Assembly (NCBI RefSeq): GCF_001027745.1
Contig: NZ_LECU01000006.1
Location: 620,001 to 684,000, forward strand
Source of the DNA: Pedobacter sp. BMA
GTDB taxonomy: Bacteria > Bacteroidota > Bacteroidia > Sphingobacteriales > Sphingobacteriaceae
Direction of reading: 5' to 3'
Length of the DNA stretch: 64,000 nucleotides
The translations under genes and the position numbers were made by a program. Each line of letters begins with the position of its first letter. Position 1 is the stretch's first letter. Positions 2,201-5,869 of the stretch are shown in pieces. The notes under the pieces are model-generated. The model made no database searches. It had not been told where the DNA came from and saw nothing but the letters and a program-made list of their open reading frames with translations.

Positions 2201-2644
2201 ATGTATAGTATTTTAAAATCTGCGCACTCAGGGTGGCGCTACATCGTATTAATTTTATTAGTTGTTGCCGTAATTAATGGCCTGCAGGGGTGGTTAGGTA
2301 AAAAAACGTATACAGAAGGTAACCGTAAGCTAAATGTCTTTACCTTAATCAGCGCGCATATTCAGTTTCTGATCGGATTAGTGCTTTATTTTTTAAGTCC
2401 GCTAACAAAACTTCCGATGAGCGACACGATAGGAAGATACTTCAAAGCTGAGCATACCAGCATGATGCTGATTGCCATTATTCTGATTACTATTGGGAAC
2501 TCAAAATCGAAAAAAGTGGCAGATGCTGTGGCAAAACACCGCACTATAGCTATTTTCTTTGGATTGGCCTTAACTATTATTATTGCGGCCATCTCACTAA
2601 TGATCAAAGAAGTTCCCGGAAGATCATTTTTTGGAGTTTCTTAA
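2201..2644 (+). CDS. Small four-helix membrane protein, cytochrome b-like
   Basis: This 147-residue protein has four hydrophobic segments (about 12-30, 47-65, 87-100, 113-135) and no signal peptide. Each segment carries one histidine near its start (H9, H53, H85, H113), a layout that would suit b-type heme ligation in a four-helix bundle. Similar Bacteroidetes proteins are often labelled cytochrome B, but I recall this from annotation practice, not from biochemical proof. It stands alone, between the divergent amidohydrolase and the trp leader, and is followed by a hairpin at 2716-2745. Heme binding is an inference. Confidence 0.65.
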   Translation: MYSILKSAHSGWRYIVLILLVVAVINGLQGWLGKKTYTEGNRKLNVFTLISAHIQFLIGLVLYFLSPLTKLPMSDTIGRYFKAEHTSMMLIAIILITIGNSKSKKVADAVAKHRTIAIFFGLALTIIIAAISLMIKEVPGRSFFGVS

Positions 2645-2715
2645 AAAATGATTGCTTTCTGAGTTAGCCGAAGTGTATTTTGCAACAGAAACTCTGGAAT
2701 ATTGATAATATTTTA

Positions 2716-2745
2716 AATAAAGCCGCCCTGCCAGCCGGCTTTATT
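2716..2745 (+). terminator. Hairpin terminator after the 2201 gene
   Basis: AATAAAGCCG (2716-2725) pairs with CGGCTTTATT (2736-2745) around a 10-nt loop. The run of T is inside the arm and no long T tract follows, so it is a weak or partial terminator. Confidence 0.5.
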
Positions 2746-2799
2746 CGTGAACAAATAAAAGTTTAACATAAAATATATTGAATTAATTGTGGTAAATAT

Positions 2800-2829
2800 T
2801 TTGCTTTTTCAAATTTCTTTATATTTTTG
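2800..2829 (+). promoter_or_regulatory. trp operon promoter
   Basis: TTTG at 2800-2803 (the -33 element) is separated by 18 nt from TATTTTTG at 2822-2829 (the -7 element). Both match the known Bacteroidetes sigma-ABfr consensus and spacing. The predicted start of transcription is about 2833-2837, which coincides with the leader-peptide ATG at 2836. Confidence 0.75.
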
Positions 2830-2835
2830 TCGCTC

Positions 2836-2904
2836 ATGATCAGCAAGATACATACATGGCTTTGGCGCGGTAATTCTAAAAAGAGTTGCGCTGGCTGCGT
2901 ATGA
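2836..2904 (+). CDS. trpL: Putative tryptophan leader peptide, near leaderless
   Basis: This 22-codon frame starts MISKIHTWLW and ends CAGCV before TGA, with Trp codons at positions 8 and 10. It lies directly after a good promoter and 42 nt before a strong terminator hairpin that precedes trpE. GGCGC within and after the second Trp codon (2864-2868) can pair with GCGCT (2888-2892). CGCTGGCT (2889-2896) can instead pair with AGCCCGGCG (2948-2956 region, one bulged C), the left arm of the terminator. That is the mutually exclusive geometry of transcription attenuation. Only two Trp codons and the lack of a 5' UTR are unusual. Expression of the peptide is inferred. Confidence 0.7.
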   Translation: MISKIHTWLWRGNSKKSCAGCV

Positions 2905-2945
2905 GAAAAATATAGTTTATCAACCTAAACCTTAATTGAACCAAT

Positions 2946-2988
2946 AAAGCCCGGCGTAGAACCACACGCCGGGCTTTTATTTTTTTAA
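2946..2988 (+). terminator. trp attenuator terminator
   Basis: A 12-bp perfect stem (2946-2957 with 2966-2977) surrounds an 8-nt loop and is followed by TTATTTTTTT. It stands between the leader peptide and trpE with no other gene to end, so it fits an attenuator rather than an operon end. Confidence 0.85.
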
Positions 2989-2998
2989 AAAATTACAA

Positions 2999-3036
2999 AG
3001 GGGAGATGCCTACATTGTTCCTCCCCGCAATGACGA
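2999..3036 (+). repeat. REP-like palindromic remnant before trpE
   Basis: GGGGAG (3000-3005) and CTCCCC (3021-3026) form an inverted repeat, followed by GCAATGACGA. The stretch resembles the dispersed palindromes containing CATTGCGAGGAGG and its complement that are common in Bacteroidetes intergenic DNA. The likeness is from memory. If right, the ATGs at 3006 and 3030 belong to the repeat and not to trpE. Confidence 0.4.
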
Positions 3037-3041
3037 TAAAA

Positions 3042-4439
3042 ATGTTTAAAATTAATACCACCTATAAAAAAATGCTTGCTGACACCACAACGCCTGTTAG
3101 CATTTATTTACGATTACGCGATGTTTATCCAAACAGCATCTTACTCGAAAGTTCAGACTATCACAGCCGTGAGAATTCTATGAGTTTCGTTTGTGCTGAA
3201 CCTGTAGCCGGAATTATTTTGAAAGGCAAACGGCTGGAAACCTATTTTCCGGATGGAACCGTTGCGATCAAAGAAAGTAAAAACCTTACTGAAGAAATAG
3301 CCGAATTTAAGGATCAGTTTAAACAAACAGACTTTCCTGAAATTAAGTTCATTTCCAGTGGTTTATTCGGTTATTTCACCTGGAATGCCGTACAGCATTT
3401 TGAAGATATTCAGTTCACATCCGAAACTCCCGAAGGAGAGGAAATTCCGGAGATGCAATATCATTTGTATCGTTATCTGATTGCTATCGATCATTTTAAA
3501 AATGAAATCACTTTGTTCAAGAATACTTTCGAAGGGGAAGAGGAAGGCGGACTGGAAAAAATGGAGTACCTTATACAGAATAAAAACTATCCTGAATATA
3601 AATTCCAGCTTCGGGGGGAGGAAAGCTCAAATTTAACCGATCAGGGCTTTATGGAGCTGGTGGAAAAGCTCCAAAAACATATTTATCGCGGTGATGTTTT
3701 TCAGATAGTTCCGTCGCGGGCATTTAAACAAGCTTTTTCGGGTGATGAATTTAATGTATATCGTTGCCTGCGTTCCATCAACCCATCGCCCTATCTTTTC
3801 TATTTTGATTACGGTAACTTCAAGCTCTTTGGATCATCACCAGAGGCTCAAATTACGATCAAAAATAACACAGCCAATATTTTTCCAATAGCGGGGACTT
3901 TTAAGCGAAGTGGAAATGATATCGAAGATGCAGAACAGGCCCGTAAACTGGAGCAGGATCCGAAAGAAAGTGCTGAGCATGTGATGCTGGTTGATTTAGC
4001 CCGTAATGATTTAAGCAGGCATTGTAACCGTGTGGAAGTAAAATCATTTAAGGAGGTTCAGTATTACTCGCACCTTATCCATTTGGTAAGTAAAGTGAGT
4101 GGCCACCTTCAGGAAGATGTAAGTGCTTTTAAAGTTGTTGCCGATACTTATCCGGCAGGGACACTTAGCGGGGCGCCTAAATACAAAGCCATGCAGCTGA
4201 TTGATGAGAATGAAAAACTGGGGCGCAATTTTTATGCTGGCGCCATTGGTTTTATGGGCTTCAATGAAGATTTTAACCATGCCATCATGATCAGGACTTT
4301 CATGAGTAAAAATAACGAATTGCATTACCGTGCCGGGGCAGGTATTGTGGCAGACTCTGTTCCGGAAACTGAAATGCAGGAAGTGAACAATAAAATTGCC
4401 GCCTTAAGAAAAGCACTGCAAATGGCTGAAGGCATCTAA
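3042..4439 (+). CDS. trpE: Anthranilate synthase component I
   Basis: TrpE converts chorismate and ammonia (from TrpG) to anthranilate, the first step of tryptophan synthesis. The C-terminal chorismate-binding domain shows GDVFQIVPSRAF, LVDLARNDLSR and PAGTLSGAPK; the N-terminal part has LLESSDYHSRENSMSF, in the region that usually carries the Trp-feedback site. The frame is open from 3006, but I prefer ATG 3042 (MFKINTTYKKML, 465 residues) because upstream codons lie in a palindromic remnant and read unlike the family. It is preceded by a leader-peptide attenuator and followed after 47 nt by trpG. Confidence 0.95.
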   Translation: MFKINTTYKKMLADTTTPVSIYLRLRDVYPNSILLESSDYHSRENSMSFVCAEPVAGIILKGKRLETYFPDGTVAIKESKNLTEEIAEFKDQFKQTDFPEIKFISSGLFGYFTWNAVQHFEDIQFTSETPEGEEIPEMQYHLYRYLIAIDHFKNEITLFKNTFEGEEEGGLEKMEYLIQNKNYPEYKFQLRGEESSNLTDQGFMELVEKLQKHIYRGDVFQIVPSRAFKQAFSGDEFNVYRCLRSINPSPYLFYFDYGNFKLFGSSPEAQITIKNNTANIFPIAGTFKRSGNDIEDAEQARKLEQDPKESAEHVMLVDLARNDLSRHCNRVEVKSFKEVQYYSHLIHLVSKVSGHLQEDVSAFKVVADTYPAGTLSGAPKYKAMQLIDENEKLGRNFYAGAIGFMGFNEDFNHAIMIRTFMSKNNELHYRAGAGIVADSVPETEMQEVNNKIAALRKALQMAEGI

Positions 4440-4486: not shown

Positions 4487-5071
4487 ATGGAAAATAAAGA
4501 TAAAAAGCCAGTTTTAGTGATAGATAATTACGACAGTTTTACTTATAACCTGGTTCATTTAATTAATGAAGTTGGATACGACGCTGTGGTATGGAGAAAT
4601 GATAAGTTTGATTTGGCAGACGTATCACAATACGATAAAATTTTGCTTTCCCCGGGTCCCGGTATTCCGGAAGAGGCTGGTTTACTTCTGGATGTAATCA
4701 AAACCTATGCTCCGAGCAAAAGTATTTTCGGAGTATGTTTAGGGCAACAGGCAATTGCAGAGGTTTTCGGTGGAACTTTGCTAAACCTCGGACGTCCTAT
4801 GCATGGTATTGCGACACCCGTTACTGTTGTCGACGGCGATGAGCCCTTGTTCTGGGAATGTCCCCAAACCATCAATGTAGGACGCTACCATAGCTGGGTA
4901 GTGAGTAAGGAAAACTTTCCTTCCTGCCTGAAAATTACTGCAAGAGACCACAAAAGTGAAATTATGGCATTAAGGCATGAGTCGCTCGACGTTCGCGGAG
5001 TACAATTCCACCCCGAAAGTGTACTTACAGAATATGGTAAGCAAATGATGGAGAACTGGTTGACGAGTTAA
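4487..5071 (+). CDS. trpG: Anthranilate synthase component II (glutamine amidotransferase)
   Basis: This 194-residue class I glutamine amidotransferase supplies ammonia to TrpE. It has the oxyanion motif SPGPGIPEEAG, the nucleophile loop FGVCLGQQA (Cys84) and the catalytic HPES near residue 174. The length is normal for a free-standing TrpG, and it is not fused to TrpD. It lies 47 nt after trpE and 15 nt before trpC, in one transcription unit. Confidence 0.95.
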   Translation: MENKDKKPVLVIDNYDSFTYNLVHLINEVGYDAVVWRNDKFDLADVSQYDKILLSPGPGIPEEAGLLLDVIKTYAPSKSIFGVCLGQQAIAEVFGGTLLNLGRPMHGIATPVTVVDGDEPLFWECPQTINVGRYHSWVVSKENFPSCLKITARDHKSEIMALRHESLDVRGVQFHPESVLTEYGKQMMENWLTS

Positions 5072-5086
5072 CAAACAAGAAATTAC

Positions 5087-5869
5087 ATGAACATTTTAGA
5101 TAAGATCGTACTACGAAAAAAGGAAGAAGTTGCTGATGCGAAGCGATTAATTTCTGCTGATGATTTAACGCAATCGGTTCACTTCAACAGAACGCCATAT
5201 TCCTTCAAAGAGTTTTTACTGGCCGAAGATCGTACCGGCATTATTGCCGAGTTTAAGCGACGCTCTCCTTCAAAAGGATTAATAAACGGTATAGCCGATG
5301 TAGCTGAGGTGACCCAGGCTTATAATCATGCGGGGGCATCGGCACTTTCCGTATTAACCGATGTTGAGTTCTTTGGTGGTAAAACCGATGATATCCTGGC
5401 AGCCAGAGCTGCAAATCAAATTCCAATCCTGCGTAAAGATTTTATGATTGATGAGTACCAGATCTTAGAAGCTAAAGCCTGGGGAGCGGATATCATTCTG
5501 CTCATCGCTGCAATCCTTAGCCCTCAACAAATTAGTGATTTTGGAAAGTTTGCTCAAAACCTTGGTTTAAATGTGTTATTGGAGGTACATAATTTAGAGG
5601 AACTTGAAAGAAGTATCTGCCCGCACCTGGATGCTATCGGTGTTAATAACCGGAATCTTGCAGATTTTACGGTAGATATACAAACTTCATTTGATCTGGT
5701 GAATACTATTCCAAACGAGTTTTTAAAGATCTCTGAAAGTGCAATCAGTAACCCTCAAACCATTAGGGAGCTTAAAGCTGCCGGCTTTGACGGCTTTTTA
5801 ATTGGTGAAAACTTTATGAAAACAGATGATCCGGGTACGGCGATAAAAGATTTTGTAGCACAGATATAA
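5087..5869 (+). CDS. trpC: Indole-3-glycerol phosphate synthase
   Basis: TrpC closes the indole ring, turning carboxyphenylaminodeoxyribulose phosphate into indole-3-glycerol phosphate. The 260-residue TIM barrel shows IIAEFKRRSPSKG, LSVLTDVEFFGG, ILRKDFMIDEYQ, GVNNRNLADF and ISESAIS in the family order, so the catalytic Lys and Glu positions look intact. It lies 15 nt after trpG. trpD, which would act between TrpEG and TrpC, is missing from the cluster. No TrpF domain is fused. No clear terminator follows. Confidence 0.95.
   Translation: MNILDKIVLRKKEEVADAKRLISADDLTQSVHFNRTPYSFKEFLLAEDRTGIIAEFKRRSPSKGLINGIADVAEVTQAYNHAGASALSVLTDVEFFGGKTDDILAARAANQIPILRKDFMIDEYQILEAKAWGADIILLIAAILSPQQISDFGKFAQNLGLNVLLEVHNLEELERSICPHLDAIGVNNRNLADFTVDIQTSFDLVNTIPNEFLKISESAISNPQTIRELKAAGFDGFLIGENFMKTDDPGTAIKDFVAQI

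Follow-up and report, generated by a model that had tools for sequence, protein, structure and literature searches.

Can a tryptophan attenuator operate with a leader peptide that begins where the transcript itself begins? The region upstream of trpE in Pedobacter sp. BMA raises this question, since a promoter there lies directly in front of a short reading frame with two Trp codons. We analysed a window of 64,000 nt of this genome (contig NZ_LECU01000006.1, positions 620,001 to 684,000), and all coordinates given below are window positions. A sequence-only reading had described a promoter that places the transcript start on or next to the ATG of a 22-codon peptide with Trp at positions 8 and 10, and direct reading of the letters confirms the promoter, the peptide frame and its Trp codons. 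We consider the element to be, very probably, a ribosome-mediated transcription attenuator of trpEGC whose leader ORF sits at the very 5' end of the transcript.

Architecture of the trpE leader

The element and the genes downstream of it comprise the following features.

2800..2803, + strand: -33 promoter element TTTG, read from the sequence
2822..2829, + strand: -7 promoter element TATTTTTG, consensus TAnnTTTG, read from the sequence
2834..2836, + strand: predicted transcription start; 2834 or 2835 from promoter spacing, 2836 if a purine is required
2836..2904, + strand: leader peptide ORF MISKIHTWLWRGNSKKSCAGCV, 22 codons, ATG at 2836-2838, stop TGA at 2902-2904
2858..2869, + strand: region 1, which can pair with region 2 (folds)
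2887..2896, + strand: region 2, antiterminator strand (folds and family comparison)
2946..2957, + strand: region 3, terminator left arm and alternative partner of region 2 (folds and family comparison)
2966..2986, + strand: region 4, terminator right arm (2966-2977) plus U-tract (sequence and folds)
3042..4439, + strand: trpE, anthranilate synthase component I (PF00425, PF04715)
4487..5071, + strand: trpG, glutamine amidotransferase of anthranilate synthase (PF00117)
5087..5869, + strand: trpC, indole-3-glycerol phosphate synthase (PF00218)

The two promoter elements, TTTG and TATTTTTG, are separated by a spacer of 18 nt and form a promoter of the Bacteroidota type, and only 6 nt lie between the end of the -7 box and the leader ATG. 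Trp 8 is encoded at 2857-2859 and Trp 10 at 2863-2865, and region 1 overlaps the Trp codons and extends 3' of them. The terminator has a stem of 12 bp (2946-2977) followed by the U-tract, and its hairpin folds with -22.4 kcal/mol, with a z of -6.1 relative to 200 shuffled sequences. In the window folds, region 2 pairs either within 2948-2958, that is with the terminator left arm, or with 2858-2869. The sequence-only reading had the left arm pairing with 2889-2896, which agrees with these folds, and had this segment sequestered by 2864-2868, which is largely so. Judged from the window sequence alone, the 1:2 and 2:3 folds are unexceptional (z -0.87 and -0.84), and the support for both pairings is therefore comparative. 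The trpE ORF contains a further ATG at 3006, and the sequence shared with relatives starts at about the ATG at 3042; the closest TrpE matches among named genomes are from Pedobacter, with at most 97% identity. The region 5' of the attenuator holds a 147-aa ORF (2201-2644) without a Pfam match.

Promoter spacing and the predicted 5' end

Transcription start sites of flavobacteria allow a prediction of the 5' end. In F. johnsoniae the distance from the box to the transcript start is 4 or 5 nt (PMC6847099), and in F. psychrophilum the -7 element is placed at -12 to -5 (PMC9723704). From this mapped box-to-start spacing, the window transcript would start at 2834 or 2835, leaving a predicted 5' UTR of 1-2 nt. 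The first purine from 2834 onward is the A of the ATG (2836), a purine being a usual base at which transcription starts.

The spacing was followed through the family. TrpE was matched in 86 of 101 Sphingobacteriaceae genomes, and 85 loci were retained after exclusion of G007, which has internal stops. A Trp-bearing leader ORF is present in all 85 (with a single Trp in L068), a number that is partly given by construction because the selection rule asked for a short frame containing Trp and gave extra weight to a box; the counts of spacing, frame and exact boxes depend less on this rule. For L003 and L076 the leader was assigned by hand, as an upstream in-frame Trp misled the automatic choice. 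In 83 of the 85 loci, which represent 21 genera, the leader start follows the end of a -7 box with no more than one mismatch at a distance of 4-10 nt. The box carries a mismatch in 15 of these 83, and it is exact at this distance in 68 of the 85, while only 6 have an exact box farther out, at 11-70 nt. A TTTG element precedes the -7 box at a distance of 16-20 nt in 62 of 84 loci, with 18 nt in 40 of them, and a purine is available between the fifth nucleotide past the box and the A of the ATG in 59 of 83. In one deviating locus, L063, box and start are 20 nt apart. Another member of the same genus as the window, L009, possesses leader and terminator, has no recognisable -7 box and shows a longer distance to trpE.

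In 80 of 84 loci an ATG that shares the frame of the Trp codons follows the box at 4-10 nt, compared to a mean of 1.7 and a maximum of 7 when the box-to-Trp segments of 83 loci were shuffled. The distance from box to Trp codons nevertheless falls into all three phase classes (33, 30 and 21 loci), and in 58 of 84 loci the stretch from 4 nt past the box up to the first Trp offers a single start codon. The near-box spacing was found again in 79 of 80 loci of a second sample, the named loci, in which the search for the box was confined to 4-22 nt before the start and its presence weighed in the selection of the ORF, and which partly overlaps with the 85-locus set, some species being common to both. 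Across the Sphingobacteriaceae, promoter spacing predicts a 5' UTR of about 0-6 nt, which would make many members near-leaderless and not leaderless in the strict sense. The prediction of a near-leaderless start of the trpE leader is, judged by such comparison of sequences, well supported.

Genome-wide, the strict pattern of promoter plus near ATG by itself gave 19 matches versus 14 for the pattern read backwards, which is near chance, and the claim of a near-leaderless start hence rests on conservation; a genome-wide leaderless class defined by this pattern was rejected on the same numbers. Matches to the pattern were also seen 5' of ORFs of 96-358 aa (L133, L135, L130 and L140). A gene control, made up of 20 stretches of 20 kb and the window, contained 13 exact boxes at a gap of 4-10 nt before 351 ORFs (at least 120 aa, with the first ATG taken as start). 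The count was 0 of 15 when an upstream TTG was required as well. A separate, stricter version of the control is uninformative, having only 2 promoters before 357 ORFs.

Outside the family the picture is mixed. The class set consists of 67 further loci from other families of the class (without G247, G293, G397 and the second match in G253), and 53 of them have leaders; L213 and L216, with only 99 and 151 nt of upstream sequence, were scored as without leader. Among the 53 Trp-run leaders, the box lies 4-10 nt before the start in 27 (15 families; 23 exact by hand count) and at 12-35 nt in 22 (19 exact by hand count, those at 12-33 nt), and 4 are without usable box or start. The 13 matches of the Bacteroid-trp motif RF01692 in 148 genomes of the phylum are likewise divided, with gaps of 16-20 nt in 8 and 4-7 nt in 5. 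The arrangement is thus common, not obligatory.

Leaders of other amino acid genes in the family served as controls. For his, hisG is present in 48 genomes; the best 30 were taken, and 28 of these gave a leader (L146 and L148 did not). An exact box stands at 4-10 nt in only 1 of the 28, which also has one at 34 nt; 19 carry an exact box at 20-40 nt, and 26 at 20-48 nt (hand count). The genome under study has its own His-rich leader before hisG, MKLTLNHHLHLHHRR (L153, C1; set L141-L170), with the box 45 nt upstream. For phe/tyr leaders before pheA, 13 of the best 30 of 36 genomes passed the score, several of the rejected ones resembling the same leader. None of the 13 has an exact box at 4-10 nt, 12 have it at 12-28 nt and 1 has no box; L377, below the score, has a box at 10 nt. 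These leaders are rich in Phe and Tyr with the pattern AYWFFGYFYFSSKSRD, in the own genome MKLFNTYYFGYFYFFSKSRG (L366, C5; set L351-L380) with a box at 19 nt. A second leader resembling a trp attenuator precedes trpD, in the own genome MIIKNLNNNWWWHNEIR (L268, C5; set L241-L270). Taking 30 of the 50 genomes with a trpD match, 28 have Trp-run leaders (L252 and L261 have none), usually with a box of the CATATTTG type. Box and start are both present in 27 of the 30, L241 having no start codon after its box; the median gap is 11 nt, 13 of the 27 fall within 4-10 nt, and the box is of the one-mismatch type in 25 of the 27 (hand count). The 30 ilvD loci yielded 1 doubtful leader candidate, and branched-chain leaders are uninformative. 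Among the leaders examined, the predicted near-leaderless start marks trpE, while trpD shows it in a weaker, intermediate form and his and phe/tyr are without it.

What this spacing means can be read in different ways. Compatible with the preferred reading, and only slightly short of an even chance, is the view that the attenuator is real while the 5' position of its start codon arose neutrally from the compactness of the leader and plays no part in sensing. The class leaders with a box at 12-35 nt (22 of 53) indicate that the arrangement is not required, and the intermediate trpD leaders (n = 27) point in the same direction; yet the trpE spacing is held across 21 genera, and the exact box stays well upstream in nearly all his leaders (26 of 28) and nearly all phe/tyr leaders (12 of 13). 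More tentatively, the 5'-terminal start codon may be a working part of the sensor, which selection would have kept for trpE and not for his or phe/tyr. In bacteria whose initiation is independent of Shine-Dalgarno pairing, ribosomes could then load in the leaderless manner as soon as the start codon emerges from the polymerase, and both leaderless initiation and charged tRNA-Trp would govern the switch. The RNA left after termination would itself be a short leaderless message, with a possible action in trans like that of Sinorhizobium.

A leadered Trp attenuator, in which transcription is driven by a promoter farther upstream and the near-ATG box arose by chance or belongs to a secondary promoter, appears improbable. 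Exact boxes upstream do exist, in the 6 family loci mentioned above and, at 12-33 nt before the start, in 19 of the 53 class leaders. Against this, the near box is held at 4-10 nt in all but two of the family loci with no consistent alternative, and in most of them it is accompanied by a TTTG element at 16-20 nt.

Probable leader translation and terminator switch

Under the preferred reading, a ribosome-mediated attenuator with its leader peptide at the 5' end, the leader has to be translated. The layout with Trp 8 and Trp 10 recurs in 48 of the 80 named loci, corresponding to 23 distinct leader starts. Within these 23 distinct Pedobacter-type leaders the ATG and both Trp codons are invariant, and heterozygosity rises from 0.083 and 0.149 at the first and second codon positions to 0.270 at the third. 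The sequence-only reading had made its case dependent on conservation of the frame and of the Trp codons, and both are conserved. Downstream of the Trp codons, the frame of the leader C-terminus (2887-2904 in the window) differs between close Pedobacter relatives (L273, L274, L278, L288) while the RNA is unchanged: leaders end in CAGCV, ELRWLRMNKI or RIALAAYAKI, and the RNA ATTGCGC-GGCTGCGTATG is retained (L273, L274, L288). The comparison indicates that the peptide matters as far as its Trp codons, and beyond these the RNA seems more important than the peptide. The sequence-only reading was also right that a Shine-Dalgarno site is absent, but this is not an oddity, since mRNAs without Shine-Dalgarno sequences are the norm in Bacteroidota (PMC6847099). 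An untranslated leader, be it a plain terminator, a riboswitch or a protein-bound attenuator with an accidental short ORF, is hardly credible: the lack of a Shine-Dalgarno site, the almost absent UTR and the frame shifts past the Trp codons with the RNA kept would suit it, but an open frame with Trp codons runs from the near-box start, its ATG and TGG codons do not vary, third codon positions vary most, region 2 follows the last Trp codon at 10-24 nt in 84 of 85 loci as stalling needs, and Rfam matches at gathering score are absent throughout the window.

An intrinsic terminator is located between leader and trpE in all 85 loci, mostly with the core CCCGACG or CCCGGCG. Region 2 was sought in the 34 nt beginning 6 nt past the last Trp codon, and its placement in these 84 loci suits a release by ribosomes stalled at Trp, although the antiterminator is weak in some members. 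The cognate 2:3 pairing has a mean of -11.8 kcal/mol, compared to -9.6 kcal/mol with the arms of other genera and -2.1 kcal/mol for a decoy, the next 34 nt. The permutation test of cognate versus swapped pairing gave p 0.001-0.003 with one locus per genus, and against the arms of other genera the cognate arm paired better in 68% of the comparisons (4519 of 6674). Weak 2:3 pairing is seen in L009, L063, L051, g18 and some members of g21. Compared with dinucleotide shuffles covering the full segment from leader to terminator, region 2 reached p 0.05 in 53 of the 85 loci and missed it in 32. At arm offsets -1, 4 and 5 the 2:3 and 3:4 pairs covary jointly, with several standard pair types including reversed G-C/C-G; each offset owes its reversed type to 2 loci of a single genus, and the 2:3 pair types, taken from the best duplex of each locus, are biased towards pairing. 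A left arm that covaries with two partners fits what an attenuator requires. Covariation of these pairings across the trpE upstream regions of the Sphingobacteriaceae had been named by the sequence-only reading as a check on its proposal, and its overall interpretation is supported.

The switch could work as follows. RNA polymerase would begin 0-2 nt upstream of the AUG, and a ribosome would load at this 5'-terminal or near-terminal AUG and translate the 22 codons. With charged tRNA-Trp scarce, the ribosome would stall at Trp 8 or Trp 10 and mask region 1 (2858-2869), leaving region 2 (2887-2896) available to region 3 (within 2948-2958); the paired 2:3 structure would block the terminator and trpEGC would be transcribed. 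With plentiful Trp, the ribosome would reach the stop codon just 3' of region 2 and the 3:4 terminator would form. Promoter spacing, the open leader frame, its Trp codons, the terminator and the covarying alternative pairings are conserved; from these we infer the exact transcript start, initiation of the leaderless type, stalling and the response to Trp. That the element is an attenuator is close to certain as far as a sequence can tell.

Relation to known attenuators and leaders

The pairing logic is a familiar one. The trpL leader of E. coli follows the 1:2, 2:3, 3:4 scheme with Trp codons adjoining region 1, and the window leader would share this logic; trpL differs in carrying a 5' UTR and a Shine-Dalgarno site. 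Leaderless short ORFs encoding polycysteine in mycobacteria, described by Canestrari in 2020, reportedly act as amino-acid-responsive attenuators; they are similar in being leaderless, and differ in that they respond to cysteine and belong to Actinobacteria. In Corynebacterium glutamicum, likewise an Actinobacterium, leader peptides precede the amino acid genes ilvBNC, trpE, leuA and aroF, possibly as attenuators (PMC3890552), and initiation of the ilvBNC leader has been discussed as being of the leaderless-mRNA type (PMC11857589).

Short leaders form a minority in those Bacteroidota that have been mapped. Leaderless or near-leaderless mRNAs account for 5.5% in F. psychrophilum (PMC9723704) and 5' UTRs below 10 nt for about 3.7% in B. 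thetaiotaomicron, and leaders of up to 10 nt for about 13% of the transcripts of F. johnsoniae (PMC6847099), so that leaders of 10 nt or shorter are not rare everywhere. The flavobacterial map has also given strong clues for leader peptide attenuation before amino acid operons (PMC9723704).

Within the phylum, the published Bacteroidetes motif Bacteroid-trp, RF01692 (PMC2864571), which has been compared to the E. coli trp leader (PMC6414381), is similar in having a leader with Trp codons and a terminator 5' of trp genes. The RF01692 model (cut-off 49 bits) found no match at gathering score in the window and none at E up to 5 within 2600-3200. In 41 genomes of the family, searched with stricter filters, it matched no trpE leader and nothing in G000; it gave three matches there, one above the cut-off, and two of the three lie before trpD. 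The match above the cut-off (L086, G015:C41) coincides with a Trp-run leader away from the trpE locus and the best trpD locus of that genome. The trpB ncRNA motif RF04312 scored 25 bits (E 0.34), below its cut-off of 59 bits, and was taken as a chance match. A known Rfam riboswitch or leader family was rejected, since the window has no match at gathering score.

A close counterpart is the trpL/trpE(G) attenuator of Sinorhizobium meliloti (rnTrpL, peTrpL), whose RNA starts at the leader ATG (PMC7298713). The Pedobacter element would likewise be a ribosome-dependent trp attenuator before trpE, with its start predicted at 2834-2836; S. meliloti is an Alphaproteobacterium with a leader of 14 aa, whereas the leader described here has 22 aa, a TAnnTTTG promoter and a predicted 5' UTR of 1-2 nt. 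In a literature search that covered few subscription journals, near-leaderless trp leaders of Sphingobacteriaceae or other Bacteroidota were not encountered. The sequence-only reading had left open whether the class has been described; in part it has, by the leaderless trp attenuation of Sinorhizobium and by RF01692, and what appears to be new is the predicted near-leaderless trpE form in Sphingobacteriaceae. Trp attenuation thereby comes to include loci not recognised by the present Rfam model. With a predicted near-leaderless start that is kept across the family, and attenuator-like his and phe/tyr leaders with longer predicted UTRs as controls in the same genomes, the effect of leaderless initiation in Bacteroidota becomes directly testable.
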